Assembly: GCA_023078555.1 (NCBI GenBank)
Contig: CM041204.1
Location: 3,688,430 to 3,752,429, forward strand
DNA: 64,000 bases
Direction of reading: 5' to 3'
Source of the DNA: Ulva prolifera
Lineage: Eukaryota; Chlorophyta; Ulvophyceae; Ulvales; Ulvaceae
A program made the translations under genes and the position numbers. Of this stretch, positions 35,920 through 57,156 are shown in pieces (position 1 is the stretch's first letter; each line of letters begins with the position of its first letter). Under the pieces are notes generated by a model. It ran no database searches. It saw nothing but the letters and a program-made list of their open reading frames with translations, and had not been told where the DNA came from.

Positions 35920-35955
<36 letters not shown>

Positions 35956-36454
35956 CGGAGGGGGGGGCACCCCGAGCGTCGTGAGGTCCACCGCCTCACA
36001 GCCCCCAACGGTGGGGCCTCAGTATGACCCCGTCGACCCCACGTCGGGACCAGACCGCCCTATGTGGGACCCAGCGACCTCGCTGGTGCCAGCCGGTCCT
36101 GGGACTCTTGTAGTATCCGTTAACAAGCAGGACCGTGGCCGCAAGACCGTCATAACCATAAATGACGATCCGCCTTCGTCCGGTCCATCCACCTGCGACA
36201 GGGAGACGAATCTGCAGTGTGCCGCTGCCATGTGGGGGACAATGACGCGCTGCAACCCGCGTCTACAGTTACCCGGGGATGACCAGAGGATCATGCTCAT
36301 GGTGGTCCTTTCTGGCCATGGGCTGATTCCAGACGCCACCACCATGAACGAGGTCCTCTTGACGAGTCAGGAGGTGTGTCGCTGGTTGTATGAGTCCCCT
36401 GTCCACCTACGTCGTCCCTGTCCGGTCCACCGTATCTACGATCCCGAAGTGTGA
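33921..36454 (+). CDS. CACTA-borne hypothetical gene, 3' block with 41-residue repeats
   Basis: Several open segments lie in order on the plus strand. 33921-34316 contains FAECFADVTTFHQAM. 34320-34790 contains FTSLLIDVCPGDTIWHWALRAW. A 41-residue repeat block (34959-35743) follows, and then a terminal segment to 36454 with CAAAMWGTMTRCNPRL and EVCRWLYESPVHL. A TGCAG acceptor at 33922-33926 suggests it continues from the block ending near 33607. Frames change between segments, so introns or damage are present. No known family was recognised. It ends tail-to-tail with the protease gene. Confidence 0.4.
34959..35743 (+). repeat. 123-bp coding minisatellite (six full units plus a partial)
   Basis: Units start at 34959, 35082, 35205, 35328, 35451, 35574 and 35697. 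Each encodes 41 residues: GLPKA, a Gly-rich run, PAAAAAGTDNAAAALSQPAQQ and an Ala-rich end. Exact phase keeping and mostly third-base variation suggest it is translated. The last unit degenerates into a long G run. Confidence 0.85.
35920..35955. repeat. 36-nt G homopolymer
   Basis: There is an unbroken run of G, with further G-rich sequence on each side (35717-35738 and 35957-35969). It is a strong candidate for G-quadruplex formation and for length error in the assembly. Confidence 0.85.
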
Positions 36455-37004
36455 CCTCGTGATGTGGCCTAACTGGCGCCGTGTTTGCAGTCTCCCCAAG
36501 ACCCCATGAGTGAACTACGAGAGGCGCTGGGTAAACTGGAGGCGGATGACGGTGACATTGCCGGCGGGGAGTAGGCTGCCTGTAGATTTGTAGGGAATTT
36601 GAAGGGGTTCATTGCAGTGGCGTGTGTGTGTTAGCGTGGGGGTGCGATGTGCCACAACACAGATCTGTAACCTGCAGTCCGTGTATACCTATGCAATTAC
36701 TGGTACGTATTGTCTCGAGCTGATACTTATTTTCGTGATGCCATTTCGCTGCAGCTGCACTGTACCTCGTTATCTCGAGTACTGCAGCGCTGCGGGCTGC
36801 TGCCAGGGGGGCACAGTTGACACTGTTCTGAACACAATAGGTACATAAGGCAAGACGCCGTAGTCAACCTACGGATTTCGACTCAGTATCCCAATCGTTA
36901 TCGCGTGTAAACATAACTATCCATCCTCAATGGCTTCAGTTCGCGTGCAACACATGTCTGCTGTTAGTATTACAATCATCTACTGAGCAGCGCAGCTGCT
37001 GTAC
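36455..37004. other. Spacer between convergent genes in the outer transposon
   Basis: No coding potential was recognised. It should hold the 3' ends of the plus-strand gene (stop 36454) and the protease gene (stop near 37005). Confidence 0.5.
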
Positions 37005-38463
37005 TCAACATGCGCATATTCTGTATTTATCGCCTAAGGCTTGGCAATGACATTTGGAATAGGGATCCCTATTCCGCCGAGTATAAATCGATTTATACTC
37101 GGCGTTCAGGGCTTCCGCCGGCTTCTGAACACTGGGGACAATTTCAGTCCACAATGTCGTCCTGAACCAGTGCCTGCAGACAGATGCTCCGGCGTCAGAA
37201 GACATGCCAACTATCGATGGTGCCTGGACATGGACACGAGCAACGTACATGCATTGCACTGTGGGAGGCAATTGGTGGCTGGAGCGGTACCGTAGTTCCT
37301 CTTCCGTGAGGTCCGGGCAGATAGGCTCCTTCAGGTTCACATCCCACCTGGCATCAATTAAGATGCGTCGGGCCTCCTCTGAGCCTAGGCGACCAACGAA
37401 ATCCCCTGCACGCCCCTTATTCTCCCATTCTTGTAGCAGTGTACGTGCCATGAGGACACGGTATATCACTACATGCTCCGCCTTCAACAGCTTCAGCCGG
37501 CTGACAGCCCCCCGTTCCACAGTGGACCCGTCGCTGGGGGACAATACCACCATGTTCTGGCGACCCTGGTCGCACTGTTTAATGGCGTCACCCACAGCCT
37601 CTGCCATCAGGCAGGTGTGGACCCCGCAGTCAAAGGTATTCCGCTGTTCAGGAACACTTTTCACCTGCACACCGCGCCTGTGTTCAGAGGCCCCACTTGT
37701 GGCTGGCAGGACTAGTCCGCCACACTGTGATGCGGTGCAACTGACGGCGACAGTGAGGTGACACACAGATGAGACATACCACGCGTAAGTTGAGGCGGTA
37801 CTTCGGCTTCAGCGCTGGCAGGGCACCTTGTTTGGCTCCGCGCTTCGGCTGGAACTTCTGTCGACCAGGTGTCGATAACCCCTCTGGCAGCTCAGTTAGG
37901 GGGGGTACCCCGGTAAGGCCCTGACACAGCGCCAGGCTCATCACGTCTATGAGGGCAGTTGGTGCTGACGCCGACGCGTCGGCAAGTGAGTCGAACCAGC
38001 TCATTACGGGGCACTTCCCAAGCAGCAGAAGCCCTGCATGTAGGGGTGGTTAGAGTGTCCACAGCGGCACTGTGTCATACGGCACAAACGGGGGAAGGTG
38101 GGGAAATCGGGGGGTATAGGGGGGGTGTTAACATGCACAGTTACAAGTGCATACGATGGTATTTGGAATCGCACTTGGAGAGAACACCGCTGCAAGTGCC
38201 CAGTGCTTCCCCGTTGGCACCGGGATGAGGAGACACCTTGAGTTTAGTGCGTACGCCCTCTTCAGCCACTTGGCGAGGTGCATCAGCATTCTACGGGCCT
38301 CGGGGTCGCTGCTAGGGTCACGGGTGACCAGTCCTGCGATGTGGTCAGACGGGACCGCAATGACCCCCGGCCCGGCTAGGACAGCCGCCTTCACTACCGC
38401 ATACTGCACCGGGATGGAGCTGAACCACTCTGTCACCCAGAACTCCCGGAAGTGGTCGACAGC
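37005..38463 (-). CDS. C48/Ulp1-like cysteine protease, C-terminal catalytic part (gene split by a hAT-like element)
   Basis: The catalytic residues of a Ulp1-type (SUMO-protease-fold) peptidase appear in order. The His is in PTGKHWALAAVF (codon at 38203-38205). The Asp is in WFDSLAD (37990-37992). The Gln and Cys are in VPEQRNTFDCGVHTC (Cys codon 37626-37628). They lie on three exons. Likely introns are about 38143-38025 (donor GTATGC, acceptor ATGCAG) and 37771-37667 (donor GTATGT, acceptor TGTGCAG). C48 proteases are carried by some large plant and protist DNA transposons; their role in transposition is unclear. The upstream half continues at 39543. Confidence 0.78.
37056..37104. repeat. 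Two abutting perfect palindromes (20 bp and 30 bp) sharing one base
   Basis: The first is GGAATAGGGATCCCTATTCC (37056-37075). The second has arms CGCCGAGTATAAATC and complement (37075-37104). They share the C at 37075. They lie in the last part of the protease frame. The same layout recurs at 60770-60820. Confidence 0.85.
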
Positions 38464-39542
38464 TGGGTTGGGTGATCGGGCCCGATTGGGCAAATTTCCC
38501 GATTTATCGGGCCCGATGAGAAAAATCCCGATTAATCTCCCGATTTGGCCATCTTCGAGCTAGAATGAACTCTGTTGACGACTGTTAAGGTGTCATATGA
38601 TAGATAAACATGTTTGCGGATTGTGGCAAGTGTTCCTGTCAAAAAATTCGACCTGTGGACGTTTTCGTGTGCGACTAAGCTCGCCGTGGACCTATAAATA
38701 AACGACCACAGGTGCTCAGCGACGCACGGTTGCGCAAGATTTGAAAGCTCAATTTGCCTGTCAAAGACTGTGTGAGCGCTACACTCGATTTGCGGCATGG
38801 CGTGCAAGTACTGCTCATGGTCTCGTCAACGAGCTAGCACGAACGAGTACATGGCTCAATCGGCTGGCGAACAGACAACAACATCAGGAATGCATTGCAA
38901 AAGTCCATTGTGATTCAGAGAAGTCTTTCGCAATAGATTTGTTAGTTCAGGCCCGTGGCTGCGGCAAGTATTCGTGTCATCAGCAGTCTATGAGGCTACG
39001 CACGACCATGAGAGGGCAGCAATCGATCAAGAATCAATGTATCTGATGTCTCTGAGTGCATTTAATATCTTGGACATTCGTAATTCCATCGCAATCGTGA
39101 TCAGAATTGGACCTGGTTTCTGTGTATCATCACACAAGTGTGTCAGCTCTCTCTTAGATTAGACACACATATGTATATAAAGATGCAATGATAATTATTA
39201 ATCAGGTGGCTTTGGACCCACCGGATTGCATTGTGGAGTGCTGTTGTGATCTTATGATTGGACACATCCGAGCAGCCAGTCATAGCAGTGCCATCAGTGA
39301 ATGCTGCTCATATAAATCCATCACAAATCATGCAAGACTACAATTAAAGCGCTATGATGATGTGTTCTCGCTTCATTGGAATCAATTTTATGTCAAACTT
39401 TGGGCAGCTCGACTGAAGTGCGTCCAGTTGTAGACATCCCTAAATATTCAAAAATTTTATCCGGATCTAGCCGAAAATTCCCGATTTATCGGGCCCGATT
39501 TGAAAAATCCCGACATCGGGGGATCGGGCTCGACCCAACCTA
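38464..39542. mobile_element. AT-rich non-autonomous hAT-like element inserted in the protease gene
   Basis: The termini are inverted repeats, TGGGTTGGGT on the left and TAGGTTGGGT (complement) on the right. Repeated ATCGGGCCCGAT and AATCCCGA motifs lie just inside both ends. A direct repeat GGTCGACAGC flanks it (38454-38463 and 39543-39552), consistent with an 8-10 bp target duplication of the hAT type. The interior is clearly more AT-rich than the host transposon. No transposase was recognised. Confidence 0.75.
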
Positions 39543-40996
39543 GGTCGACAGCCACATGTACCGTCACTTTCGTGGCACCGAAATCTGCCAGGTGCACTTC
39601 AACACTGGGCACTCTAGTGCTGCCTGATGGACACTCCACGTCCACCACGTCGAGCTTCTGGCCGCGGAGGAGGTTCCCCGTGGGGGCCACGTGCGAAATT
39701 TCAGCGGCCAGCCGCTTCAGCGGCCGGGCATCCGACCTCTCCGGAGCCCGGTTCATTGGCTGTCTCCCTCCCCCGCCCTCCGGTGGCAGCAAGCTCTCTA
39801 GGGACAAGAACCCCTTCCCCACGGCGGGTGGGTGAGCTGCGCCTTCCCTGCCGTCGGGGGTGTCCACCTCCATCGGCCCAGCGGCACCGGCTAACTGGCC
39901 CGAAGCGGATGGGCGAGCTGCGCCTTCCCTACCGTCTAAGGTGTCCACCTCCATCGGCCCAGCGGCACAGGCTACCTGGCGCGGCGACGCCGGTGTGGGC
40001 CCAGGAGGGTCCTGGGCGGCTGCAGCCAACACTGCGCCGCGGCTGAACCTCCTGGGCTGGGCAGGGTGCATCATTGCACGCCCAGAAGCAGCAGCCCCCT
40101 TTGCCTTGGGGGCCGCGCACTCCTGTCGATCCGGCAGAGCCGCTGGCGGTGTTGCCGCCACTGCACGTTCCGCTGCGTCATCGTCCCGGGGGCTGTCGGG
40201 GGCTGGTGCCAGGCGGGACGCCACCGTGGTCCCCACAGCGCTCTGGCCGCAGGATTCTGCCCTCTCGGGAGGGCCAGGCTCGGGGGCCTGCGGTGACCCA
40301 GATGGCATGACACCGCCATGCGGGGCCGACAGTTGTGCACCCTGGGGTTCGAGCTGCGGCGGCATTACTGGCGCCGTTAAGCGGGCCTCGAGGACCGCCG
40401 GTCTGGGCCACATCGGTGTGGCATGTGGGGCGCTGGCCTGGAGCCTATCCCACCATGCTGCAATCGGCCGGCCACCGATGGTCATCCGGAGGCGAAGCAG
40501 AAGCCCTGCCATGGTCTCGTCGGGGCCTTGGGTCGTGGCGACGGACCTGTACACCATGATGGCACGGTGCTTCTGACTGGACGGCCCGCTGAAACGCGGC
40601 TTCTCGCATCGCGACCCATAGCAGCTTTAAATGGTGCGTAGCAGCTCGGTATGGAGTACTTGCGCCCGCTACTTCGCGGGTTAGTACCCTTCCCATGGAC
40701 GAGAAGCCTGCCATCATCCTGGACTCCGCCTTTTTATCGCCGGCAAGGATGGTATCTATCATAGCGACATCGCAAGCTGTCAGTACCCAGCCGGATTCCA
40801 TCATGTCCACCGGAAAGCCGTGTGGCCTGTCCATGACCAGCGACGGGATGCGGTTCCCAGGAACCCAGTTTCCCTGTGACGCTACCTCCACGAATCTATA
40901 AAAAGTAGGCTCATATTGAGCTCTACTATCTAATTCAGTGAGGTACGATTTCAGCGTTTGCACAGTGATCGTGCCAATGTTCAACGTTGAAGACAT
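39543..40996 (-). CDS. C48/Ulp1-like protease gene, N-terminal part
   Basis: The proposed start is MSSTLNIGTITVQTL at 40996. The first segment (to about 40590) has YEPTFYRFVEVASQGNW and STPYRAATHHLKLLWVAMR. After a frame change near 40570 (short intron or one-base indel) it continues MVYRSVATTQGPDETMAG. A long Pro/Ala-rich linker follows with two near-copies of GPMEVDT(L/P)DGREGAA. It ends VTVHVAVD at the hAT-like insertion. Removing the insert and one duplication copy continues directly into HFREFWVTEWF of the catalytic part, in frame. The long N-terminal extension has no domain I recognise. Confidence 0.65.
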
Positions 40997-41224
40997 CGGA
41001 ATGAATCGCGGGCCACGGGCTCGAACGACAATGGGAGCTAATACTACATAAGCTGGAGCGAGACGCGTGGTGTACTGTAAAGGAGGTACATGGATACAGC
41101 GCGTGTGAGAAGCGCGTGTCCTTGAGAAGCCAGGCTGGCCTTGGCCAACTCCACATGACGTCACAGCATCGACGCTGTGCACGCGGGCATCCTGTAGACA
41201 CTTGAGTGGTGCTGGGCACATGCA

Positions 41225-41300
41225 TTGCTCGCATGCGGAATGGTTGGTGGGCCACCAACCATTCCACGGTGGCGCTGACTGGGCACATGCATTCCGCATG
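41225..41300. repeat. Single palindrome unit between transposase and protease genes
   Basis: GGAATGGTTGGTGGG and its complementary arm occur once, with the flanking GGGCACATGCATT part of the left array in reverse orientation. The left flank (about 41165-41225) also matches the complement of 31955-32010, so this is a single inverted copy of the left-array unit and its adjacent segment, placed upstream of the protease start. Confidence 0.75.
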
Positions 41301-41327
41301 GTGGCCGCCATATGGGGGATGACCTCC

Positions 41328-43161
41328 TTACACAGTACGCCCGGAGGCCTTATTCGCTGTCTGCCAATACTGAACACCTCCTGCCGTCCGTTTCACCGGA
41401 ACCAGCTGCCCGGCCATAGCATCAATGTTCACTACATACCGGCCAGTGTAAGCTGAGGAACGGTGATGCACGCCATCACCCCTGTAAAACTCGGGAGCGC
41501 GGTTCAGCTCCTCATCCGCCTCCCTGCATCCGGGTGTATAGGGTGTACTACACTCGTACACGTCTGTCACACCGAGGTACAGTACGCTGGCCTCTACAGT
41601 GCAAGTTCTACAGATATTCGACCCGTCTGCCGTGCTGAGCCTGGCACGGACTATGTATTGCAAGTCGCCGACATAGTACCGATCCTGGCCCCTATTCGTA
41701 CCCTCTTCTAATACATGGTGCTTCAGCAGGCACCATCGATTGTCTTTCTTACCCTGACCAGTGTGCTGCGCACAAGTCAGGACATCCCCTACCAAAGCCC
41801 GCCCTCGCAGGAATTTTCGCAGGTGCACCTCACAGAGCTGCCGCTCAGCAACAACCTCCCCAGCAACCGGCAGCCCAAGCGCCCGCATGATGGCCTCTCT
41901 CCTGCCGTAGCCCACACCCAAGACCCGCTGGGTCGGCCACCCTGCATCCTGCAGGGCGTCCTGGTGGTAGAGCAGGTAAGGCAGCCCGGACAACTCACCG
42001 ACCCCAGTGTACCCCAGCGGCATCACTTCTTTCTTCTCTTCGGCGTCGAGGTCCTTACCCGCCCCAAACACCCTGTCGTCATCACCGTCATCAGAGTCGG
42101 TGTCGCCCATGTGCACAGCGGCCCGGACCTTGCGCCGTTTTGACCGACGGCGTTTCTCTGAGGCCACGGCCTCTTGCAACGTGCGCATGGCCGCCTCTGC
42201 CGTCTCGCTGCTGTGAAGCAGCCTCATGCATGTGCGCCGCAGCAGCTCATCGTTGACATACACTTTCTCTGGTGATTTGGTGGAACGATATTTGATCAGC
42301 CGTTTAAGTAGCTGCACCATGCGTTCGATCCAGAACTCTAGACAGAAGAACGCAGGCCCACAGCATCTCACCTGGTCCGGTAGGTGCCAGGCTGCAATAT
42401 GAAGCTTGAAGGTGCAGATCACCTCCACCCCAAAGAGATCTTCTGCCATCGCGCCGTACTTCATCAATGCGTCTTGAGCTGCTTTGATCCGGGGTGCGGT
42501 ATGCTGGAGCTCCTCGTACCGCAGGAAATACAGGGTGCCTGCCCGGAGGTGCGTCCACATCTCCTCGAACACCAGCCGAACATCCTCCTGGTCGGGCTCC
42601 CATTGGAGGTCGTGCAGCAAGTACAAGGAGAACGTCTCAGTGAACGCAAGCCAGTCCTCCATGAGCCACCGAGACCGGTGCCTGCAGCAGTGCAAACTTG
42701 AAGCGAGCCACCTGCTGGCCTCCACAAGATGTAAGGTTCACGACAAGTGTGCATGGGACAGCTGCCAACAGTAACCAGTGACCGCTGCCGTATTGTGGGG
42801 GGCCGCGGAACCGCACTTGGTGATGTCGGTGTACACTTTCTTGAACAGATAAGTGTGCATGATGTGGGACGCGCGGGCAGCGATCTGGGCCACCACCTCT
42901 TTAGGCAGCTGATACAACCGCCTGGGGCCTGCAGGGCGGGCTTTCTTACGCCTCTTCGAACTCGGCAGCCACTGATTCCAGAAGTCCATGAGGAGGCCAA
43001 GGAGGAACACGTGCGCGACACCGTAGCGGAAGAAGTGGCATGGACTGCAGAAACAACCTCCTTCACGGTGTATTCATGGGTCCAGATGACGGTACTGCAG
43101 CTGTCCTGTGGTAGGGGTGCGCACTTGAAGTATGAGAGGGTGCTGAACAGGGAAGACCCTT
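41328..43161 (-). CDS. TNP2-type CACTA transposase, C-terminal part (gene split by the nested element)
   Basis: The minus strand resumes at the insertion with KGSSLFSTLSYFKCAPLP. It then carries AHVFLLGLLMDFWNQWLP, a long helix-rich part and a large open block (42725-41328) with FKLHIAAWHLPDQVRCCGPA and FWIERMVQLLKRLIKYR. These match the post-catalytic region and DUF4218-like domain of TNP2/En-Spm transposases. The end has YYVGDLQYIV and YVVNIDAMAGQLVPVKR, like the family's C-terminal domain, and stops at 41328. An acidic segment (GDTDSDDGDDD) lies in the middle. Introns are likely near 43080-43010 and 42760-42710. The N-terminal half is at 50437-52964. Confidence 0.82.
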
Positions 43162-43179
43162 CACTAGGAGAATGGTGAC

Positions 43180-43470
43180 ATTCCGGGGCGGAACCGAAGG
43201 CGTTCCGCTGACAGAGGAACATTCCTACGAGGCTGTTGACCTTCCGCCCGCGTCCGTATGCTTCACAAGGAACGATCGTGGCGGAATGTCCTATGGCTTC
43301 CTTGGTGGCAGCGGAATGTCCTATGGCTTCCTTGGTGGCTGCGGAATGTCCTATGGCTTCCTCGGCAACAGCGCTGACATGATTGTGTGCTCTTCCATCG
43401 CGCGAGACAGGCCAATCAGTCTCCGCAGATGAAAAGCACTGGAAATCCATTGCGTACTGAGGCGAACGCA
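43180..43470 (+). repeat. Left subterminal repeats of the nested element
   Basis: This is almost the same as 30447-30770 of the outer element. It contains the CGGAA/TTCCG motifs and three copies of the 30-bp GCGGAATGTCC-TATGGCTTCC unit, one fewer than the outer element. Confidence 0.7.
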
Positions 43471-43789
43471 GCTGCGCACAAATAAAAACATTACAAACGA
43501 GCACATGGAAGAAGACAAACATCAAAGCAGCTGCGCCCATGTACGTCCAGCAGTCCGACTGCTCAGAGTTTGAGCTGGAACAAGTTTACAAAAGAGTTGA
43601 CGGAGAAGACATACATGCATGTACACCAAAGGATATTGAAAAGGATTGAGCACTCATGCCTGCATATCCGATGCCCACGGAAGACGAGGACGTGCCTGAC
43701 AAGTTGGTGCTACTCTCCAGTAGGTGGTCAAGCATGGACCGCGTTCAGAGGAGACAAATGGCGTGCTCCTGTCGCTGAGTGGTCAGTGT

Positions 43790-43930
43790 GGCACCGTCCA
43801 TTCCGGTCTGAATCGATGCAAGTGTGCCCAGTCAGCAACATCGTGGAATGGTCGGTGCCTCACCGACCATTACGGCCCAGTCAGCAACGTCGTGGAATGG
43901 TCGGTGCCTCACCGACCATTACGGGGTCGA
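43790..43930 (+). repeat. Short palindrome array in the nested element
   Basis: There are two tandem copies of GGAATGGTCGGTGCC then TCACCGACCATTACGG with CCCAGTCAGCAAC between them. It corresponds to the left array of the outer element but with far fewer units. Confidence 0.8.
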
Positions 43931-44255
43931 GTAATGCATGCGCTAGTCACCACTGCAGTGTCGATGGATAGCCCACGAGCATTGCATCTCGCCATCAACG
44001 ATCTCTGGAGCGAGTATAGTACCAACGGAGCATCTTCCCACAGCAATGTAAGCCAATTCATATGAGCTATTATAAGCGTCTGGAGTCTCTCGGCGTCGGC
44101 GTCGATATCGTCTCATGATAATGCATTTCTAGTTTATTTGTATCGACTCTCTTTGTATTTCTCTGGTACTGTCCTGACGTGCAGGGAGGCTAGCTGAAGG
44201 TTAGCAGCATGTGGCACGAATAATGCTTGCGATTCATTTGTATAGCGTGGCATAA

Positions 44256-44335
44256 CATGTCTGGCTTGGGTGGTGAGGGCGCTGTGGCCTGTCTTTAAGG
44301 CGATGGTAAGCCTGACCCTGGCGTGGCAGCACCCA
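44256..44335 (+). pseudogene. Degenerate start of the accessory gene
   Basis: ATGTCTGGCTTGGGTGGTGA and what follows align with the start of the gene at 32231 (MSVVGGEEAVAC versus MSGLGGEGAVACL). Here a TAA stop follows after 13 codons, and the rest has been replaced by minisatellite. Confidence 0.65.
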
Positions 44336-44339
44336 GACA

Positions 44340-45970
44340 TGAAGGGGGCAGAGGGCATAACAACACAGAAACACCAAGTGCCACTGTGATTCAGCAACGA
44401 TGGGCAGCATCACTGTCATCCCCGCAGCTCTGCGTGGGGGGGCGGAGGGTATAACAGCACAGAAACACCAAGTGCCACTGTGCTGCGGCAGCGATGGGCA
44501 ACACCACTGTCAACCCCGCTGCACTGCGTGGGGGGGCAGAGGGGGTAACAGCACAGAAACACCAGGTGCCACTGTGCTGCGGCAACGATAGGCAGCATCA
44601 CTGTCATCCCCGCAGCACTGCGTGGGGGGGCGGTGGGTATAACAGCGCAGAAACACCAAGTGCCACTGTGCTGCGGCAGCGATGGGCAGCACCACTGTCA
44701 ACCCCGCTGCACTGCGTGGGGGGGCAGAGGGGGTAACAGCACAGAAGGACCAGGTGCCGCTGTGCTACGGCAACGATGGGCAGCAACACTGTCAACCCCG
44801 CTACACTGCGTGGGAGGGCAGAAGGGGTAATTATAACAGCACAGAAACACCAGGCGCCACTGTGCTGCGGCAACGATGGGCAGCAACACTGTCAACCCCG
44901 CTACACTGCGTGGGGGGGCAGAGGGTATAACAGCACAGAAACACCAAGTGCCACTGTGCTGCGGCAGCGATGGGCAGCACCACTGTCAACCCCGCTGCAC
45001 TGCGTGGGGGGGCAGAGGGGGTAACAGCACAGAAACACCAGGTGCCACTGTGCTGCGGCAACGATGGGCAGCAACACTGTCAACCCCGCTACACTGCGTG
45101 GGGGGGCAGAGGGGGTAACAGCACAGAAGGACCAGGTGCCGCTGTGCTACGGCAACGATGGGCAGCAACACTGTCAACCCCGCTACACTGCGTGGGAGGG
45201 CAGAAGGGGTAATTATAACAGCACAGAAACACCAGGTGCCGCTGTGCTACGGCAACGATGGGCAGCAACACTGTCAACCCCGCTACACTGCGTGGGGGGG
45301 CAGAGGGTATAACAGCACAGAAACACCAAGTGCCACTGTGCTGCGGCAGCGATGGGCAGCACCATTGTCAACCCCACTGCACTGCGTGGGGGGGCAGAGG
45401 GGGTAACAGCACAGAAACACCAGGTGCCACTGTGCTGCGGCAACGATGGGCAGCACCACTGTCAACCACGCTGCACTGCGTGGGGGGGCAGAGGGGGTAA
45501 CAGCACAGAAGGACCAGGTGCCGCTGTGCTACGGCAACGATGGGCAGCACCACTGTCAACCCCGCTGCACTGCGTGGGAGGGCAGAAGGGGTAATTATAA
45601 CAGCACAGAAACACCAGGCGCCACTGTGCTGCGGCAACGATGGGCAGCATCACTGTCATCCCCGCAGCACTGCGTGGGGGGGCGGAGGGTATAACAGCAC
45701 AGAAACACCAAGTGCCACTGTGCTGCGGCAGCGATGGGCAGCACCATTGTCAACCCCACTGCACTGCGTGGGGGGGCAGAGGGGGTAACAGCACAGAAAC
45801 ACCAGGTGCCACTGTGCTGCGGCAACGATGGGCAGCACCACTGTCAACCACGCTGCACTGCGTGGGGGGGCAGAGGGGGTAACAGCACAGAAGGACCAGG
45901 TGCCGCTGTGCTACGGCAACGATGGGCAGCACCACTGTCAACCCCGCTGCACTGCGTGGGAGGGCAGAGG
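44340..45970 (+). repeat. 94-bp minisatellite, about 17 units, with 382-bp higher-order repeat
   Basis: The unit includes GGGCAGCACCACTGTCAACC, CACTGCGTGGGGGGGC, and AACAGCACAGAAACACCAGG. Every fourth unit is 100 bp because of an AATTAT insertion. This makes a 382-bp higher-order unit with starts at 44494, 44876, 45258 and 45640. All six frames look open for long stretches; this is a repeat artefact. Confidence 0.9.
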
Positions 45971-48040
45971 ACGCACTTTCGCCGACATCCCAATACATTG
46001 CCGAGCCATTGCTGCTGTAGCATGCTGCGTCACAGCCATACTATGCGCCTCTGCCATCTGAGAGGGGGGAGGCCACGCGACACATGATGCCCACCCGCAC
46101 AAACACGCTTGCACACCCACATTGGTACAACGTTCAACGGTACGTACTGCAGCAGCGGTGCATATACTACATTTTTGCCCGACTTGTCTTGCATCGGAAC
46201 CACTAAAACGATTTTATTACTTTACCACGTACATATGTATGGCTCATACTTCCGTTGTGTCTCTGCTTTCGGTGTCGCCAATCATCCGGGGTTCATGCTA
46301 GCGCCAGGAGGCACCATGAGATCTGTGTAATGGTGGCCTGGGGCTGTTTGGGTTGCGTGCATGGCTGGGTCCACTAACGCCACACTCACCGCGATGCTGT
46401 TTTTGCATGCATGCGTGCATGCGATGTGTTGCGGTAACGCTCGCCATTCCAGGCGCGATCTCCATATGTGAGCTGTCAAAACCTAAACATTGCATCAGTG
46501 AGCATAAATGTATTATCAATTCGTTGTGCTGTCTCAATGCGTTGGAGTGCAAGCCATGACATCCGTACTGCGTGTGCGGGCGCACCGACATGATCATTGC
46601 GGCGTACCTGGTTGAACAGAGCGCCTGAAGTCTTCTACAATCTCTGTCTGTGGGTATTATTGTATAATGTGGTGTGAATCGTAGGCGGGTCTTTCACTCC
46701 CGGGCTGGCGTCTAATTGTTAGCAAGCAGCAGCCGCAGGCGTCATCGCCGCTGCTCAACTTCCGACATGCTCAATTGAAGTATGCTGCAAGGTGTGACGT
46801 TTGTATATGTCTGACGGCGCTGTCGTGGACATCACTTCCTTGCGAAGGCGCCGAAGACGCAGCTGATGTGCCGATATCGATGGTCGAGGCGCACACATTG
46901 TTCTGTTCGAGATGGCACCTGCCACCAGTTTAGAACTACTTCGTATATCATATATGCTGTAGCTGTATGCTGTAGCTTTGGATATGTTGTAGCTTCGGAT
47001 GTGCGATGGCGCCCGATCGCATGAACCACGTTCACCTTGCTTGCAGAGCAGCTGCTTGAGGTGATTGCCGTCCGACTCCGTGTCTCAAACAAACTGACAT
47101 TCTTAGAGTACGCGTAAGCAGTAATGTTACTTGGAGCCTATCTACGCTTGCTTCTCTGCTGCTCGATCGAGATCATTGTGGTGCGCCTGGCATTTGCGTG
47201 CACCATCGGTTGTTGACCAGGTGTGTTTTCGCAGGTCACGGGTATCAGCATCTTCCGGTATACCTACGTAGCCTACCTGAGGAACACACACTCACGTGGA
47301 AGTTATTTCGAGCCGGCCATGGGATCGTGACATCAAGCAAAACCGCATGGCATGGAGGTGGTGCGATCCTATACCAAGTGCTTCCATTGTGGAGAGCAAA
47401 CATATGGAGTATGTTCTAGATTGACTATTGGACAGTACCGAACACTCTCGCGAGACTTGCATAAATCTCGGCGAACAAAGTTTACATGCACAACTGCCAT
47501 CGACAGTTACTTCGTGGCAACAAGCAGGCGCCCAAACATCGCATTTGTGTGTGCACACGTGCGTCCAAGTTTGACCTCGTTAGTACCCGCAGGGCGTCTA
47601 TAAGCATGCATGGGATCAAAACTGTAAGACAAGGCAGCCAAAGGATTAAGAGGACCGGAATATGTCGACAGCAGTGAGGGCTTAGAGAATTATCCGGCGC
47701 GTTCCTTGTTTGAGTGCGTTGTGTTGGGGTTGCAATCCTTCGAGTGTATACATGTATCATTTAGCTGCGTACGTGGTGCCTCCACGTGGTGTCCTGTCTC
47801 GCCTTGATAGCTGATGCACATTGCATATCCCAAGAGGCACGCGGAATACATCTGCACCATCGTAAGTTCGTTTAGTGTTCTTCTGCATGCCTGCTAGAGC
47901 GGGCAGTCCCGCACCGTTCGTTTTCAAGAGTCCGCGAGAGCGGATGGTGGAGCACCGTCCATTCGTAGTTACAAAAGAGTGAACGAGAGAAAAACAACAC
48001 TGAAATTCTTAGTCGCCACGCCGCGCATGGTTCGTCACAT
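45971..48040. other. Unassigned interior of the nested element
   Basis: No conserved domain and no counterpart in the outer element were recognised. A degenerate palindrome unit (GCGGATGGTGG...CCGTCCATTCG) at about 47939-47967 precedes the right array. Confidence 0.5.
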
Positions 48041-48051
48041 GCATGACTACT

Positions 48052-49178
48052 GGAATGGTTGGTGCCCCACCAACCATTCCGGGGAGCCTGGATCATGACA
48101 TGCATGACTGCCCGAATGGTTGGTGGCCCACCAACCATTCTTGTGCGTCGCGCCGTGCATGGATGCTTACATACATGACTGTCCGAATGGTTGGTGGCCC
48201 ACCAACCATTCCGGGGTGCCTGGATCATGACGTATGTCATGCATATGCATGACTGCCCGAATGGTTGGTGGCCCACCAACCATTCTTGTGCGCCGCGCCG
48301 TGCATGGATGCTTACATGCATGACTTCCCGAATGGTTGGTGGCCCACCAACCATTCTGGGGAGCCTGCATCGTGACATGCATGACTGTCCGAATGGTTGG
48401 TGGCCCACCAACCATTCCGGGGTGCCTGGATCATGACGTATGTCATGCATATGCATGACTGCCCGAATGGTTGGTGGCCCACCAACCATTCTTGTGCGCC
48501 GCGCCGTGCATGGATGCTTACATGCATGACTTCCCGAATGGTTGGTGGCCCACCAACCATTCTGGGGAGCCTGCATCGTGACATGCATGACTGCCCGAAT
48601 GGTTGGTGGCCCACCAACCATTCCGGGGAGCCGGATCATGACATATGTCATGCATATGCATGACTGCCCGAATGGTTGGTGGCCCACCAACCATTCTTGT
48701 GCGCCGCGCCGTGCATGGATGCTTACATGCATGACTTCCCGAATGGTTGGTGGCCCACCAACCATTCTGGGGAGCCTGCATCGTGACATGCATGACTGCC
48801 CGAATGGTTGGTAGCCCACCAACCATTCCGGGGAGCCGGATCATGACATATGTCATGCATATGCATGACTGCCCGAATGGTTGGTGGCCCACCAACCATT
48901 CTTGTGCGCCGCGCCGTGCATGGATGCTTACATGCATGACTTCCCGAATGGTTGGTGGCCCACCAACCATTCTGGGGAGCCTGCATCGTGACATGCATGA
49001 CTGCCCGAATGGTTGGTGGCCCACCAACCATTCCGGGGAGCCTGGATCATGATATATGTCATGCATATGCATGACCGCCCGAATGGTTGGTGGCCCACCA
49101 ACCATTCTTGTGCGCCGCGCCGTGCATGGATGTTTACATGCATGACTTCCCGAATGGTTGGTGGCCCACCAACCATTC
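48052..49178 (+). repeat. Palindrome array with about 206-bp higher-order repeat
   Basis: A 27-bp near-perfect palindrome (arms GAATGGTTGGTGG / CCACCAACCATTC) recurs about 16 times. Three different spacers alternate in a fixed order: one with TTGTGCGCCGCGCCGTGCAT, one with GGGAGCCTGCATCGTGACAT, and one with a smaller palindrome around CATATGCATGAC. This gives a three-palindrome super-unit. It occupies the position that in the outer element is intron 2 of the 53296 gene. Confidence 0.9.
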
Positions 49179-49201
49179 TCGGGCGCCGCGCCCCACATTC
49201 C

Positions 49202-49547
49202 CTGACAGACCCATCTGATGTAGACGTTGTGCTACTGCAAAACAAACACATTGGGCAACAACATACCAGTGCGCGTGAATGAGCGCAAGCCACTGACACA
49301 TAACCTATCCATGCAGTTGTCCAGACTCGGAGCGAGGACTGCTTACGGCGAGGGCACGATGAAGCCGGCCGCGCAGTGGGCACAAGAAGACGGACTGTAC
49401 GTGGCTGACTACGAGTACTTCAAGAAATTCATCCTTGGCGCACTAAAAAAGGAGGGGATAGCGGAATCTCCGTTGCATCCCACCCATAAGAGGAGCCAGA
49501 AGGTTGGCCTCGCGTTGAAGATTACCCGGAAGAAGTATGTCGATTAG
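49202..49547 (+). pseudogene. Damaged copy of exon 3 of the divergent accessory gene
   Basis: The frame is about 65% identical to 54972-55280 (shared LSRxGxRTAYGxGTMKxAAQWA and ESPLxPTHxRSQ). The splice acceptor TTAG used in the outer copy is TTGG here. The upstream exons are missing and the frame stops soon after RSQK. It is a relic left by internal deletion. Confidence 0.7.
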
Positions 49548-50080
49548 TTGTATACCAACGTGGGCTCGGAAAGAAACTGTACACATGCGGTGATCGTGAT
49601 TAAATGTATGAGTGGAGTATATGACATGTTAGAGGTGGCACTACATGTGATCGTAGTATCATCGTTCCTTATGGACATGATGAGGGCACCCAAGGTGACG
49701 AGATATCAATGTAAGCAATGTCTATGATATGCCTATGCAAGCCATGACCACCCCTGCCTACGAGCTCGTGTGAACACATCAATAAATCTGTCTTGTTCCG
49801 GAATCACGGTGTACAGTTGATGACATGCTGCTTGTATATGCACTCGAAACTGCCTTTCCCGTAGGACCGTATGTCCTGTGCACTAATCGCGATTCTCTGT
49901 CGAAAACGTGGTACACATGTTACAATAGAGTGAATGGGAGAGAACAAACATTGAGACCGAGTTGCATCCGAATCAACGGCAACCTACACGTGGCACGCAT
50001 GTAAAGAAGGCCTTGATGACCTCACCACTTACGTAATCTGTCTCCAGCACATCCGGGCAGAGATTAACCTCTCACGAACC
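49548..50080. other. Right interior of nested element, homologous to 56170-56760
   Basis: This is non-coding. It aligns with the outer element's right part (ACCAACGTGGGCTC, ATGACATGTTAGA, GTGAACACATCAA landmarks) but lacks the long fold-back found there at 56489-56618. Confidence 0.6.
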
Positions 50081-50089
50081 ATCCTGTTC

Positions 50090-50436
50090 TTCCAGGCTTC
50101 CGGGAGGCTTCCGCAAGGCTCTGCCGGAACGTTATCGGATCCGTAACCATTCCGAAATTTTAAGCATTCTTCCTCAAACAGTCCTCTGGAAGCATTGCGG
50201 ATCCTTCGCACGTTCCGGCATCACTCCGGAAACGTTCCGGCGGAACCCCCACGTGGAGTGCCCGTTGAAACACCCCGTCCGGAACGCTCGCGGAACTTCC
50301 GTCCACAATCCGGGCTGCCTTCCGGGCGCTCCGCCAACGGTCCTTTCGCCGTTCCCGGGGTTCCGCCAGGCCTCCGCCACTCTTCCTCAAACCATCCTCG
50401 CACCTTCCTCACCACCACGTCACCATTCTCCTAGTG
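50090..50436 (+). repeat. Right subterminal repeats and terminus of the nested element
   Basis: TTCCG/CGGAA motifs occur every 10-15 bp, ending in the 18-bp terminus at 50419-50436. Close to 56817-57153. Confidence 0.75.
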
Positions 50437-52964
50437 CTTTAACCCCCACGCGGATGTGCTCCTTCTTCGCAAGTTTCTGCCGTTCCAGCAGGGTGTCTTC
50501 GGCAGGGTAGCGGTCCAATGTGGGGCTGGTGGTCTGCATGCAAGCCTCCTGGTGGGCGTATTGGCAGAACATCGACCATGCATGCAGGCACATGGGCCGC
50601 ATGACAGAGGAAAGATTCAAATACAAGGGTAGCCGCACCTGATCAGTCAACTGGTCTGCTGTGTGGCCGCGAGCGCACATCTCTGAAGCAGAGTACTTCA
50701 GCCGGCAGTCCTTTGCCAGGGTCGCCGGGTCGATGGTGGTAACCTCGGACCACTTCGTGCGAGGGGGGGGGGGGGGGGCCCGGGGTCTGGTTCCAGACAG
50801 CCGGGCACCATCCTTGGCACCGCCCCCGCGGCAATGTCCGTCTCTTGCGCCGCTGTGAGGGGCTCTCCTTGATCAGGCCCCGCAGCGTGAACCGGCTGAG
50901 GCTGGATGACCGGGCCGTGGAACCCAAGCCAGCTGCACGGCGGATGTCTGATAAGGACAGTAGGGAGCCCCCAAGCCATGTCGGAGGGGGTGGCCGAGGC
51001 GGGCTTGGCAGGGATGCCAGGGGTAAGCAGGGGTGGTCAGAGGCAGCATGGCGACGGCACGGCAACTGGAGCCAACATACCGTACTGTGTTGGCTGCGAA
51101 CACCCAGACGCCGTTCTGGGCGCAACGGTAGCACGCCCTCTTGCCGTGCCCGATGCTGTTGGTCAACTTCTGCATCCATGGAATGTCGCCCTCCACACAG
51201 CAGAGCACAGGCCAGATGCGCAGAACTGTTCCGTCAGGCATCTCGACTTTGAAAGCCTCGATCCCGTCCTCCCCCTTCCTGGCTGCATCGTAGGGGGCTT
51301 ATAGTGAACACAGCCACATCAAGCACTGGCCGGACATGAGTGTGCACTGGGTACACACTCGGCAGACTGACACGTACCTGGGTCATGCTTCTTGAAGAAC
51401 TCGAGGACCTGTGCAAGGATGCTGTCCATGTTCGTGGGTTTAGTTGGGCCCTCGACTACCCCCAGGGGGATCCAGGCATCATTGCAATGAGACAGATGAG
51501 GGGGGAGGTCCAGCAGGCGGATGCCCCAGATTGTGGTCCTGTGTTGCTTGTTCGCGTACAGTTGGGCGCCGTCACCCCCTGCAAGCGGGCTCATTGTCAT
51601 GGAGAGGCTACTGCAGGCCCCACTGGACCCAGACGATATCGATGGCGTGGCAACTGAGTGATGGGGACGCAGGATAGGTCGAAATCAAGCCGAGCGCACC
51701 CAAGCTGAAAAGCAGTGCAATTTCGTCCGGGTCAGCCTTGTCGAAAATCCCGCCGCATGCGGCGTTCAGGGCACGTCCGGCAGGGGACTGCCAGAAACCG
51801 GCGGGATCCAGTAGGGCGTGCACTCGATGAGCACGAACCGCGGCTAGGACGCCGGGTTGCAGAATCAGGTCTTTCAGCGATTCGGCCTCCCCAAAGTAGA
51901 AGACACTCCGGCAAGGTGCACCCTTGCCTGCCAGGTCCACCTCGAAACGCTTCTGGGTGCACCCTGGGGTGTTGCAGACGTCGTCCAGGTGGTGGGTATG
52001 ATCACACGGCTTTATACCTGGGAAGAGAGTCCAGCACTGTGGGCACACGTGCCGGGTCACCGAAGAGACATCTGGTACTGCCAGGACAGCCTTGGCCAGG
52101 TGGAAGGAGGGGGGGAACATATTCCCATCTGGTAAGAGTAGATAATGCACAAAACGACACCACATGTCAACCACAACATCACTCATCCGGAACATGCTTT
52201 TCAGGCTGGCGATCCACATTGATACAGTCAACACTGTGAGACGGCAGGTGTCGGAGACATGATCCATCCGTCTCTGACGCCACCATGCGGCAGTCCCCTT
52301 CACGGCTGCAGCCTCGGCTGGGACCTGTGGACCCTCGCGGTCGTCGAGGGAGTCGCTCTCACCAGCCATTTACACCGACAGGGAGCAGGGGGTGGGTGCC
52401 CAGCACAAGAGCAAATCGGATAATCAGGCTGCGTCGGGAGACACCGAAAGGACAAACCTCAGTAGAGTCTGTGTCCCAGTCATCTCCTGACAGGCTGGAG
52501 AAGACACTGCTGGCGTCGTCGTATAGGCTGTCCGCATCGTCGTCTCCGTAGTCTTCTTCGGATACGTCGGAGCCCTCAGTGACCTGGCCACAGGACACCA
52601 ATCACGATCACCAGATAGTCAGCACTCGGAGAGCAGACGAGGTGATTAGGGACAGGCACACCTCGAAGAGGACCTCGTCGACTCGACCGAGGTCGACAAC
52701 GCCGGGAGGCTGGTTGCCCGCCACTGGCTGGTTGCCTGTGTCATCTCCAGTGCCCTCGTCACGAGTCTGAGCGCGCCCCGCGGGGCAGGCGCGGGGGTGG
52801 TTCTGGGCAGTTAGAAGCCTGTGAAACGGTTTACTACATTTTGTGCACTTGTATAGTAACTTTAGGTCCCCATCACGAACTGGAGGATCAAGGCGTAGGA
52901 TGCCAACGGTTGCAAGGTCGTCGTCGACAGCACGCTTGGCGGTGCGAGGCCTACGCGGAGTCAT
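50437..52964 (-). CDS. TNP2-type CACTA transposase, N-terminal and catalytic part
   Basis: The start ATG is at 52964. Exon 1 (52964-52662) has a C2HC-type zinc-finger-like segment (YKCTKCSKPFHRLLTA, then H and C). Exon 2 (from 52583) is acidic. Exon 3 (from about 52357) has RMDHVSDTCR and LLPDGNMFPPSFH. Exon 4 (51578-51378) carries GGDGAQLYANKQ and GVVEGPTKPTNMDSIL. The next (from about 51290) has RIWPVLCCVEGDIPWMQKLT and GKRACYRC. DG..l and GDiP..-GK.aC.rC are the Asp-containing catalytic blocks of TNP2-like DDE transposases. Splices use GTGTGC and GTACGT donors with GGCCAG and TTGCAG acceptors. The last part (50680-50437) ends HIRVGVK at the nested insertion and continues in frame at 43161. 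Confidence 0.85.
50763..50778. repeat. 16-nt G homopolymer
   Basis: A G run lies within the transposase region, probably in an intron or a damaged segment. Confidence 0.85.
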
Positions 52965-53295
52965 TATCTGCACATTAAACGTCGATGAATTCTGCGTGGA
53001 TGAATGGCAAGACGTCGCGGCAAGCGAGCGGCGTGGTATGAACGAGGCTCAGGCGTAGTGCAAGCGTACTCGGGGACGAGTGGAGTGGCGCGGGATCATC
53101 ATGCGGTGGGGATGTAACGAGGGAGTGTCCCTGTGGCCAATGGCCGGGCACCAACACGGGCCTGTGTTTTCAAAATCTTGGATACCAGCATTGACGGATA
53201 GGCCTTGCCAAGTACCAAAGAAGTCGGAGTGACTGTAAACGCATCGGCTGCTGAGTGTCTGTCAAGTTCCGGTCGTCGTTTGTGTGTACGTCGCG
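52965..53295. promoter_or_regulatory. Divergent promoter region
   Basis: The 331 bp between the transposase start (minus, 52964) and the accessory gene start (plus, 53296) is the only place for both promoters. No TATA box stands out. The inference rests on gene orientation only. Confidence 0.4.
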
Positions 53296-56133
53296 ATGTC
53301 GGACAGCCTTCAATTTCAGTTCAAGCGAGATGCCGCGATCGTCGTCGACAAAGACACTGCGGACGACAATTCTGAGAATGGGATGCTGGACGTGCTAGCG
53401 AGGAGTATCTGGCGAAGGGGAGGGGGGTCGGACGGCATGACACTGTCGTCGGCCAACGACAACAACGCCACCTTGGACGTCGACAACGTGGAGTCCCGAA
53501 AGACATGTATTGCTTTCTACTTCCAGAAGGGGAAGATCGCTGGCGGCATCGAGCCCCCGGTGCTGGTCCAGCCCATCAACCTCCGGAATCGAGGCTCCGC
53601 TCCAGGGGCGTCGGCACGCACAGCAGCCTCCACTGCTACCGCTGCGACGGGCGACAGCGATCATGTATGGGAGGTACTACAGTCGGGAGTGCTGATGTGG
53701 ACTGACAAGTTGTCGGCGATCCTGGGCCAGATGAGGGACGAGGACAAGGCGTCTCCGCTCATGCAGGCGCTGCTGAAGGACACCGGCGACCCAAAGCTGC
53801 GGATGTATGAAGGAAGTATGCTGATGCATCAGCACGTTGGTGCGATCGCAGCGGCAGCAGCGGGGGTACGCTTGTGCTAGCCTGCTAACAACTTGAGTCA
53901 ATTGACTCTGTATCGCCGGGCTGACTTGCTGGGGCGGTTGCCATACGGTAGTGTGAAGATTACGGTGGATTGTGATGATTTCGTGTTGTGTTGTATGGCT
54001 GAGCGTGTAGTGTGATTGACCCAAGTGCTGTTTTCGTGCTGGAAGTGGTCGCCGCGGACCGTGCGCCGCGGGAGGCAATGGCCACCACAGTACATCGATG
54101 ATGACCAGACTTGATTGACTTATGCAGGCGGGCAAAGAGGGGACGGCGTACACGGCTGCGAGGAACATAGCAAAAGCATTTCGGGGCCAGGAAAGCATGT
54201 TGAGGGACGTGAAGTACAAGTGCGTTCCCTCTTGAGCATGCGACATCACGACTGTGTCAGGATGCACATGTTCGGCCGTAATCGGTGGTCATCCTTTGTT
54301 CGTGTAAGCACGCACGCCAAGTCCTGACCAAGCCGACTCCTGCAGAGGTTTCCCTCGACGAGCCTTTGATCACAACAAAAAGATGCGGCGGAGCGAGCGA
54401 GACCGCAAGGACCCGAGAGTGACCGCGGCAGTGAAGGACGTAGAGGAAGAACAGGCGCGTGCTTCTTGCTCCCGGATCGTGACGTACATGCAGGACTGCT
54501 CGGAATGGTTGGTGGGCCACCAACCATTCGGGGCGCGTGGATAGTGACATGCATGCATGCCCGAATGGTTGGTGGGCCACCAACCATTCCGAGGCGCGTG
54601 AATACTGACATGCATGCCTGCCCGAATGGTTGGTGGCCCACCAACCATTCGGGGCCCGTGGATAGTGACATGCATGCCTGCCCGAATGGTTGGTGGCCCA
54701 CCAACCATTCCGAGGCGCGTGAATACTGACATGCATGCATGCCCGAATGGTTGGTGGCCCACCAACCATTCCGAGGCGCGTTAATACTGACATGCATGCA
54801 TGCCCGAATGGTTGGTGGCCCACCTGCCTGTTCCGAGGCGCGTGAATACTGACATGCATGCATGCCCGAATGGTTGGTGGGCCACCAACCATTCCGAGGC
54901 GCGTGAAAATACTGACATGCATGCATGCCCAAAAGGTTGGTGGCCCACCAACCATTCTCGTGCTCCGCGCCTAACTGACCCATCTGATGTGGACGTTTTG
55001 CTACTGCACAACGAACACATTAGGCAACAGCATCCTAGTGCACGCGACAAGCGCACGCCACTGACACATCACCTATACATGCAGCTGTCCAGATGCGGAA
55101 CTAGGACTGCTTACGGCGATGGCACGATGAAGTCGGCCGCGCAGTGGGCACGGGACGACGGAGTGTACGTGGCTGACAACCACTACTTTAGGGATTTCAT
55201 CCTGGGTGAGATGAAAAGGGAACAGACAGCGGAATCTCCATTGCGTCCCACCCACCGGAGGAGCCAACAGGGTGGCCGGGTACGTCTTCGCGGCCATGCT
55301 GTACATGACGCAGGGATATTAAAGCGATGTCAGCCGTGGAAGTCGCGTCGATACAGAATCGCGACATGCTTTGCTACGCAGGCCGAGACCAGCAACGGCG
55401 GGAGACGCGCCCGCAAGAGAGGCAGCGACAGATCAATCGCCGATCTCCCCCCTTCACCTCCGATTCTCAACCGAACACGGAAGGATGTACCTCCGACTGA
55501 CAGCGATGACGTAGAACTCGAGGTCCTACCCCACATAGTGGCAGCCGCCCCGGAAGTTGCGGACGACGAGATGCCACAGCCCAAGACTCGGCGAAGCGGC
55601 CCAGCAGACATGGACATACAGGAGGATGAACCGGTTCGCCTTGATCTGTACATACCTCCACAAGGTTGACATGAACTGTGCTTTCATCGGCCCAGGCTCA
55701 TGTACGCGCGTTCATGATGATGCAGTGCGCTTCCTGGCATCAATATCGCATATATTCTGGTCATGCTGTTGCCGTAGGTGCGAGAGATCGTGTGACAGCA
55801 TCGTTGTTCTGCAGAAGGCAAAGAAGAAAGATACGCATCCGGCTCTGGAGAAGCGCCAGGCAGAGGCCGACGAAGAGTCTCTCAGGCATGCCCTCAAGGT
55901 TCTCAATGAAAGAATAGCCAAGTCTGAAGACGAATTAGCGAAGCTGGCATCCGGCCCCGCCCGCAACCGGAAGGGTCAGCAGGCAAAGAAGCTCGATGAA
56001 TCAATCAAACAGGACAAGGTATGCCACAGTAAATCTGAACAAGTATATCTCAATATGTGTGTACTGTCAGCGGTATGATACAGCGGCAAAGCGTGCAGGA
56101 GGAGGTCCGGGAGCTTTAGCAGTCCTTGATTGA
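53296..56133 (+). CDS. CACTA-borne multi-exon accessory gene (five proposed exons)
   Basis: Proposed exons are 53296-53865, 54128-54219, 55024-55664 (3' end uncertain), 55815-56018 and 56071-56133. Exon 1 starts MSDSLQFQFKRDAA. Junctions 1-2 (phase 0) and 2-3 (phase 2, TACAA|GTGCGT to ACATTAG|GC) keep the frame. Exon 3 has LSRCGTRTAYGDGTMKSAAQ and FRDFILGEMKREQ, then a basic and an acidic tail. Exon 4 is a coiled coil (KRQAEADEESLRHALKVL, NERIAKSEDELAKLA). The phase between exons 3 and 4 is unsolved. The compact globular part of exon 3 could be DNA-binding, as in TNPA-type CACTA proteins, but no family was recognised. Intron 2 contains the palindrome array. Confidence 0.6.
54500..54957 (+). 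repeat. Intronic palindrome array, eight units of about 61 bp
   Basis: Palindromes with arms GAATGGTTGGTGG / CCACCAACCATTC are separated by short spacers with TACTGACATGCATGCATGCC. One unit (about 54810-54835) has lost its right arm. The array lies wholly in the intron between proposed exons 2 and 3 of the accessory gene, so it would be transcribed in a defined direction. Confidence 0.9.
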
Positions 56134-56488
56134 GATGCTGTCGTGATGTGAAGACTCAGGTTGAAGATGTCTGTCTATTAGCTGTACACCAACGGGGGCT
56201 CAGAAGACACTGTCCCTGAACACAGGCGGTCGTGACCAAGTGTATGAGTGGGGTATATGACATGTTAGACGTGGCAAGACATGTTATAGTAGTAATGTCG
56301 TTCCGTATGGGCATGCAGAGGTCACAAGGTGACGAGATCTCAATGTAAGCAATGTCTATGATAGTTTATGATTGCCGATGCATGACCGCCTGCCTACAAA
56401 CTCGTGTGAACACATCAACAAAGCTGTCTTGTTCCGGAACCACGGTGTACATGCTGCTTGTATACGTCATGAATATAGTTTCGCGGTC
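56134..56488. other. 3' region of accessory gene and right interior of outer element
   Basis: No further coding was recognised. The segment is about as conserved with 49548-49850 of the nested element as the neighbouring exon. Confidence 0.45.
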
Positions 56489-56618
56489 AAACGAGAATCG
56501 CGAATGGGGCGCACATGGCATACGGTCTTGCGGGAAAGGCAGTTTTGCGTACGCGTTCATGATGGTATGCGTACGCAAAACTGCGTATGTCAGGTGCGCA
56601 CCATTCGCGATTCTCGTT
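56489..56618. repeat. 130-bp fold-back near the right end
   Basis: The outer arms AACGAGAATCGCGAATGG and CCATTCGCGATTCTCGTT are perfect complements. The inner arms GCAGTTTTGCGTACGC and complement surround a 14-nt loop. Two stems make one long hairpin. The nested relative keeps only fragments (AATCGCGATTCTC), so it either gained or lost a hairpin arm. Confidence 0.8.
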
Positions 56619-56816
56619 GAAAACTTGGTGCACCTGTTAAAATAGAGTGAATAAGAGAGAACAAACACCGATACCGAGTCGCATCCGTATCAACGGCAAC
56701 ATGCACGTGGCACTCATGTAAAGGAGGCCTCGCTGACCTCACCATGTACGTACTCTGCCTCCGGCACGATCGAACAGAGAGTAACCAAGTAATAACCCCT
56801 CATGAACTAACATGTT

Positions 56817-57156
56817 CGTCCACGCTTCCGCAAGGCTCTGCCGGAACGTCCCCGGATCCGGAATCATTCCGAAATTTTAAGCATTCTTCCTCAAACAGTC
56901 CTCTGGATGCATTGCGGAACCTTCGCGCGTTCCGGCACCACTCCGGAAACGTTCCGGCGGAACACCCACGTGGAGTGCACTTGGAAACCACCCGGTCGGA
57001 ACGCTCGCGGAACTTCCTCCCACGCTCCGGACTGCCTTCCGGACGCTCCACCAACAGTCCTTTCGCCGTTCCGGGGGCTCCGCCACGCATCCGCCCCTCT
57101 TCCGCGAGCCGTCCTCGCACGTTCCTCACCACCACGTCACCATTCTCCTAGTGACA
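56817..57156 (+). repeat. Right subterminal repeats, terminus and target duplication of the outer element
   Basis: TTCCG/CGGAA motifs are frequent (GGAACG, TTCCGG, CGGAAC), ending in the 18-bp terminus at 57136-57153 and ACA at 57154-57156. Confidence 0.8.

Follow-up and report, generated by a model that had tools for sequence, protein, structure and literature searches.

The window, by which we mean the whole 64,000-nucleotide stretch of DNA that was analysed (G000:C9:3688430-3752429), contains a CACTA element into which a second CACTA element is nested. Inverted termini that start with CACTA, as in the superfamily, were found on both elements, and the 3-bp flanking duplications (TSDs), checked for these two elements, read ACA/ACA and CTT/CTT. 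The outer element harbors a predicted accessory gene with a row of 27-bp palindromes in one of its introns, and palindromes that match them are present toward the opposite end of the element. The features are as follows.

30429..57153, no strand assigned: outer CACTA element, both termini (TIR CACTAGGAGAATGGTGACA / ...ACG) and 3-bp flanking duplication (TSD ACA)
31026..31930, plus strand: left-end array of the outer element, ten units, for the most part GAATGGTCGGTG-CCT-CACCAACCATTC, the first good one 598 bp from the terminus
41238..41264, minus strand: solitary palindrome, not an array, in an internal copy of a left-end-type segment
43162..50436, no strand assigned: inner CACTA element, nested in the outer one, termini and TSD CTT
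43777..43921, plus strand: left-end array of the inner element, two good units (GAATGGTCGGTG-CCT-CACCGACCATTA) and one poor unit
48053..49178, plus strand: right-end array of the inner element, 17 units, with accessory exons 1 and 3 not detectable there
53296..53865, plus strand: accessory exon 1, 190 aa, dN/dS 0.21-0.65 against seven other copies
54128..54219, plus strand: accessory exon 2 (predicted)
54346..54478, plus strand: accessory exon 3 (PRRAFDHNKKMRR...)
54479..55084, plus strand: predicted phase-0 intron housing the array, which homologous exons also flank in a diverged family
54503..54957, plus strand: intron array, eight 27-bp palindromes (six perfect) in units of ~61 bp, ATGCATG in the spacers
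55085..55264, plus strand: accessory exon 4, conserved part (...DGVYV...), exon end not fixed

A search of the genome (88.9 Mb, 44 contigs) with the 16-bp terminus, allowing at most one mismatch, returned 199 matches (104 and 95 by strand), compared with 1 and 0 by strand for the reversed sequence. Composition and introns would fit a GC-rich eukaryote, conceivably a green alga. Among the 38 facing TIR pairs obtained from 100 of these 199 termini, the shortest element measured 6,027 bp. The putative identity of the element's transposase rests on one DUF4218 (TNP2-type transposase) match in the window, which is below the cut-off (E 0.0033); the genome gave ten DUF4218 matches at E <=0.01, none of them above the cut-off, and one control genome also matched. 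Transposase_21 had no match in the genome, a result that is uninformative since the control genomes were equally silent. Near the left terminus, both window elements also have a 30-bp repeat that is separate from the palindromes; its proposed likeness to half a palindrome was rejected as too weak, with 38 of 2,000 shuffles scoring equally.

The inner element also carries a 94-bp tandem repeat of ~17 copies (44344-45970). An apparent further insertion with ATCGGGCCCGAT-type repeats at its borders occupies ~38470-39550 within the outer element, and sequence similar to it begins inside locus L056. A 268-bp direct repeat (29958-30224 and 60906-61172, 98% identity) flanks the outer element on both sides, outside the element, and diverged repeated gene-like blocks (~72-88% DNA identity) flank the transposons at 13.5-29 kb and 57.7-59.9 kb.

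The accessory gene and the palindromes of the window

The accessory gene model is a prediction from the sequence, with no transcript behind it. In this model, the donor (54479) and acceptor (55084) of the array intron are both in phase 0, in agreement with the preliminary description, which had proposed that the splice junctions keep phase. That description had placed eight palindromes between exons 2 and 3; the number holds, six of the eight being perfect with 13-bp arms, and the location is corrected to the intron that separates exon 3 from exon 4. An alignment of 20 copies shows the acceptor CAG conserved in every one and the donor GT in 16. The array intron apparently starts with GC, not GT (AAGGCATGT or similar), in L063, L064, L065, L067, L069, L070, and L071, and with GT in L060 and L062. 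Of 19 other copies, 18 match exon 1 over its entire length with no stop, and, judged by its dN/dS in the seven comparisons, the exon looks to be under purifying selection. Exon 4 matches at 126 genome places (E <=1). No Pfam family reached its cut-off with the accessory protein, and an exon 1 profile found no solved structure at E <=1; a DNA-binding domain is, thus, not evident in the protein. No relatives of exon 4 or of the open reading frame at 41328-42737 were found among viral contigs.

The units of the intron array, which are of the type GAATGGTTGGTGGSCCACCAACCATTC, start at 54503, 54563, 54624, 54684, 54745, 54806, 54868, and 54931. The right arm of the unit at 54806 is broken, and the unit at 54931 has two mismatched positions that stem from a changed left arm (L035). 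Palindromes with 12-bp arms and at most one mismatch number six in the intron, compared with a mean of 0.0005 and a maximum of 1 in 2,000 mononucleotide shuffles. In the outer left-end array, one of the ten units has a changed base. Related arrays had been reported at four further places in the window; these were recovered, except that 41225-41300 holds a single palindrome and not an array. The proposed confinement of the arrays to the CACTA elements was borne out in the window, where a pattern-free palindrome scan found none of this sequence outside the two elements, only unrelated inverted repeats. A stray unit was found by pattern at 47938, and two more in L046, far from the L046 array. The segment with the solitary palindrome (41064-41300, minus strand, inside the outer element) is 92% identical over 239 bp to L055; from this similarity, an internal duplication of part of a left end appears to have taken place in the outer element.

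Arrays at both element ends and two palindrome classes

Palindromes were present at 14 of 14 left ends examined. Seven of these (two in the window, five fetched) have the TIR ...GGTGACA and palindromes of the window type (class 1), and seven have the sister TIR CACTAGGAGAATGGCGACA (...GGCGACA) and palindromes of class 2. Two of the seven class 2 left ends were read from L037 and L033, and were identified by their identity to the left end of L061 (98% and 93%, respectively, over ~500 bp). The first good unit lies 481-685 bp in at the class 1 left ends, and ~530-575 bp in at the class 2 left ends. At the left ends of L061 and L072-L075, several class 2 palindromes are followed by TGACGTCA-type words.

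Toward the right end, 41 loci were examined (30 close copies, L060, and ten diverged loci), and 40 of them have palindromes ahead of accessory exon 4. The exception, L034, has no palindrome and does not enter the unit counts; its match begins at query base 112. The distance from array to right terminus was taken for 22 of 30 rows, omitting C1:1027347 and C4:3437055, which are second hits within one array, along with six rows on contigs or stretches without a listed right end. Nine of the 22 arrays end exactly 1,255 bp from the terminus, one is at 1,270 bp, one at 1,518 bp, and seven are at 2,161-2,417 bp; for the other four, no right end lies within this range (5,661 bp, 8,801 bp, 11,265 bp, and ~3 Mb), the last being the L033 array, which is shortened by a class 2 left end. 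In L033, the class 1 array and exon 4 are truncated by a sister-TIR left end with class 2 palindromes, and both classes are adjacent. The number of right-end units varies from 1 to 21 between copies, and L051, L061, and L075 are loci with a single unit. In the element at C1:4755521-4772429, the left array (L055) and the right array (L037) have exact 27-mers in common, whereas their spacers show no excess likeness (mean identity 0.51 compared with 0.50 shuffled, 40 pairs).

The preliminary description had named genome-wide scatter, as an unrelated satellite, as an observation that would speak against its proposal. This was checked in part, on the first 50 of 497 palindrome places (reaching as far as C1:4.77 Mb), of which 41 lie between facing TIRs and nine form one array beside an accessory exon. 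All are inside or beside elements, and a scattered satellite was rejected within these 50 places. Loci L005-L024 coincide with L035-L054 and were counted once, and the mutually overlapping L001-L004 were not used.

Diverged families carry the palindrome GAGTGGCCATTCGSCGAATGGCCACTC in place of GAATGGTTGGTGGSCCACCAACCATTC, with equal length, in the homologous intron and with an adjoining TGCATG motif. A sister-TIR element, for example, has the palindrome GAGTGGCCATTCGSCGAATGGCTACTC in an intron homologous to that of the window gene: the flanking exons 3 and 4 can be aligned with the window exons (47% and 39% identity), and the intron phases agree. A pattern-free finder detected palindromes of these two classes in nine of the ten diverged loci fetched, compared with 0.02 per locus after shuffling. 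In the tenth, L071, it gave only an unrelated inverted repeat (463-510 of the reverse complement, 21-bp arms, upstream of the decayed array), and three decayed units were found by pattern. Class 2 palindromes precede exon 4 in all nine fetched loci where this exon reaches an identity of 62% or more to family 2, and fetched loci with at most 47% identity have class 1 wherever units are present; the class 2 units inside L037 and L033 belong to adjacent sister-TIR left ends. The palindrome class, thus, tracks the TIR variant at left ends, and the accessory-protein lineage at right ends.

Symmetry of the units and competing explanations

The 435 units comprise 80 distinct 27-mers, in which 87.2% of arm cells are Watson-Crick paired, compared with 10.7-34.7% when the partner is slid by 1-3 bases; the 27-mers were collected from two patterns with up to five substitutions and are biased towards symmetry, a bias from which the pattern-free finds are free. 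Whether the arms differ with or without compensatory change had been put forward as a check, and as far as this was run, arms were found to differ with compensation. Watson-Crick pairs changed on both sides occur at 8 of 13 arm positions (3, 4, 5, 7, 8, 9, 10, and 12), but the slide +1 control likewise gives eight, so that the count of such positions alone is no proof, and most double changes represent a single difference between classes 1 and 2 inherited by many copies. Within-class double changes are found at position 8 in class 1 and at positions 4 and 5 in class 2, as in GAGCGGCC...GGCCGCTC of L072 and GAGTAGCC...GGCTACTC of L060. Class 1 mismatches concentrate at arm positions 7-8, and positions 1-6 and 9-12 vary little. 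Palindromes and TIR also have a 7-mer in common (GAATGGT or GCCATTC), a match reached by 11, 52, and 38 of 5,000 shuffled TIRs.

With somewhat better than even confidence, we favor the explanation that a dimeric DNA-binding protein specific to the element recognizes the arrays near both ends as cis-acting DNA sites, and that this serves transposition. Observed are the presence near both ends at recurrent places, the agreement of palindrome class with TIR variant at left ends and with accessory-protein lineage at right ends, the symmetry maintained under sequence change, the retention in an element with no detectable exons 1 and 3, and the 7-mer in common with the TIR; the binding, the protein and its dimeric state, and the role in transposition are inferred. 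The shortest length of 6,027 bp among the facing TIR pairs and the apparent purifying selection on accessory exon 1 also speak in favor. The favored candidate for the binder would be the accessory gene product, with the transposase second. A protein occupying many sites at both ends could hold the two ends in contact or load the transposase in preparation for excision; within the accessory gene's own intron, it could also tune accessory gene expression. The preliminary description had listed transposase binding sites, small-RNA precursors, splicing or export signals, and recombination traps; the evidence favors DNA sites, and the intron is one of two locations of the arrays.

A function of the pre-mRNA hairpins in splicing, in export, or as small-RNA precursors was judged quite improbable. 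It would account for the presence of the right arrays inside a predicted intron, and the 606-nt intron RNA folds far better than its shuffles (z -16.8, 20 shuffles), but strong folding is expected of any tandem palindrome, and Rfam searched over the whole window at gathering thresholds gave no match. The left arrays lie away from the accessory gene, and the matching palindromes near that other element end favor DNA sites. The inner element, when searched with exons 1, 3, and 4, yielded only exon 4 (70% identity), yet both of its arrays are retained, which again favors DNA sites. This element is probably non-autonomous. Selection on the transcribed strand would be expected to show in G.U as the favored mismatch. 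Sense-strand mismatches in the right arrays are instead more often A.C than G.U (189 to 79, or 39 to 28 among the 70 distinct units counted as right-end, a count that includes three class 2 units of neighboring left ends, one in L037 and two in L033, and a few strays); the units are related, hence these counts lean against selected RNA hairpins, and in favor of DNA sites, without proving either.

The main rival is neutral upkeep by template switching, in which the arrays are a functionless, self-maintaining palindromic minisatellite, copied from arm to arm during replication and spread by unequal exchange. Such a passenger would fit the wide range of right-end unit number and the finding that compensated and uncompensated units are adjacent in L072, and stems with double changes can arise and be repaired through template switching, according to PMC8794818. 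That the two ends carry matching palindromes but unrelated spacers is not, however, predicted by the model, nor is the agreement with TIR class at the 14 left ends examined or the clustering of class 1 mismatches at two arm positions, and uncorrected mismatches are common, which indicates that correction is not fast. We regard this rival as unlikely. Sites for a host factor, acting in transcription or silencing through the palindrome or the adjoining CATGCATG motif, appear very improbable. TGCATG or CATGCA does occur within 45 bp of 419 of the 435 units, compared with 17% of background 90-bp segments, and CATGCATG corresponds to the RY motif, which in plants is associated with B3-domain factors; the RY-like motif alone could be a host site. 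A single host factor would not explain why the palindrome class differs by element family in one genome.

Several observations count against the DNA-site explanation itself. The array is reduced to one unit, decayed, or absent at some loci (a single unit in L051, L061, and L075, decayed units in L071, none in L034), and the right arrays lie mostly 1.2-2.4 kb inside, farther in than the repeats of soybean CACTA elements. No DNA-binding domain is evident in the accessory protein, the double changes go back mostly to one class difference, and a single deletion may be the common origin of the short elements. A more specific, and doubtful, proposal is that the intron array, mirrored at the far end, constitutes a second tier of cis sites co-evolving with the accessory protein. 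One protein would then both sense its own gene and pair the element ends, and class switches (GAATGGTTGG... to GAGTGGCCATT...) would record changes in protein specificity that separate mobility groups within one genome.

Comparison with known CACTA repeats

The characterization of the arrays as an undescribed component was too strong, since palindrome-forming subterminal repeats are known in soybean CACTA elements, as described in PMC2613891. According to the same source, the soybean Tgmt* repeats can form palindromes, with two at the left border and 12 at the right, and the subterminal repeats of Spm/En are bound by TNPA. The TgmR* repeats were also described as stem-loop forming, in PMC4219821. 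The arrays described here would work like the TNPA-bound repeats of Spm/En, displaced inward, and resemble these TNPA-type repeats (Spm/En, Tgmt*, TgmR*) in having a repeated, family-specific motif near both ends and an asymmetric copy number. In Tgmt*, the repeats are found no farther than 159 bp and 732 bp from the termini, whereas the first good units here are ~480-690 bp in at the left and the arrays mostly 1.2-2.4 kb in at the right; the arrays are, thus, not confined to the terminal few hundred bp on both sides. They are retained in the inner element, as would be expected of subterminal repeats in non-autonomous copies if the element is indeed non-autonomous. Unlike those of Tgmt*, the units have the uniform form of 27-bp palindromes, with a TGCATG motif in their spacers, and on the right they sit in a predicted intron of the accessory gene. 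Given these differences in position, uniformity, and intron location, membership in the TNPA-type kind of subterminal repeat is incomplete. No report of palindrome arrays in CACTA accessory-gene introns was found in a search that covered mostly literature outside the subscription journals.

CACTA accessory proteins and their binding sites vary so much between elements that their co-evolution is hard to trace. In PMC2613891, variable subterminal motifs were proposed to accompany variable binding proteins, and whole-genome comparisons were suggested as a way to illuminate the co-evolution of binding proteins and sites. Here, many copies in one genome fall into two or more palindrome classes, and site class, TIR variant, and accessory lineage change jointly, so that protein-site co-evolution and the splitting of a family into mobility groups become directly testable. 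The arrangement suggests that cis requirements may lie at kilobase distances from the ends of an element, in a region whose tandem repeats are readily passed off as junk. Chenopodium CACTA elements, as described in PMC8978399, have captured satellite arrays, and there, as here, a tandem array is held inside the element near one end; the palindromes described here differ from those satellites in being located in or beside elements at the 50 genome places checked, in being present near both ends, in being common to diverged families, and in keeping their symmetry through sequence change.
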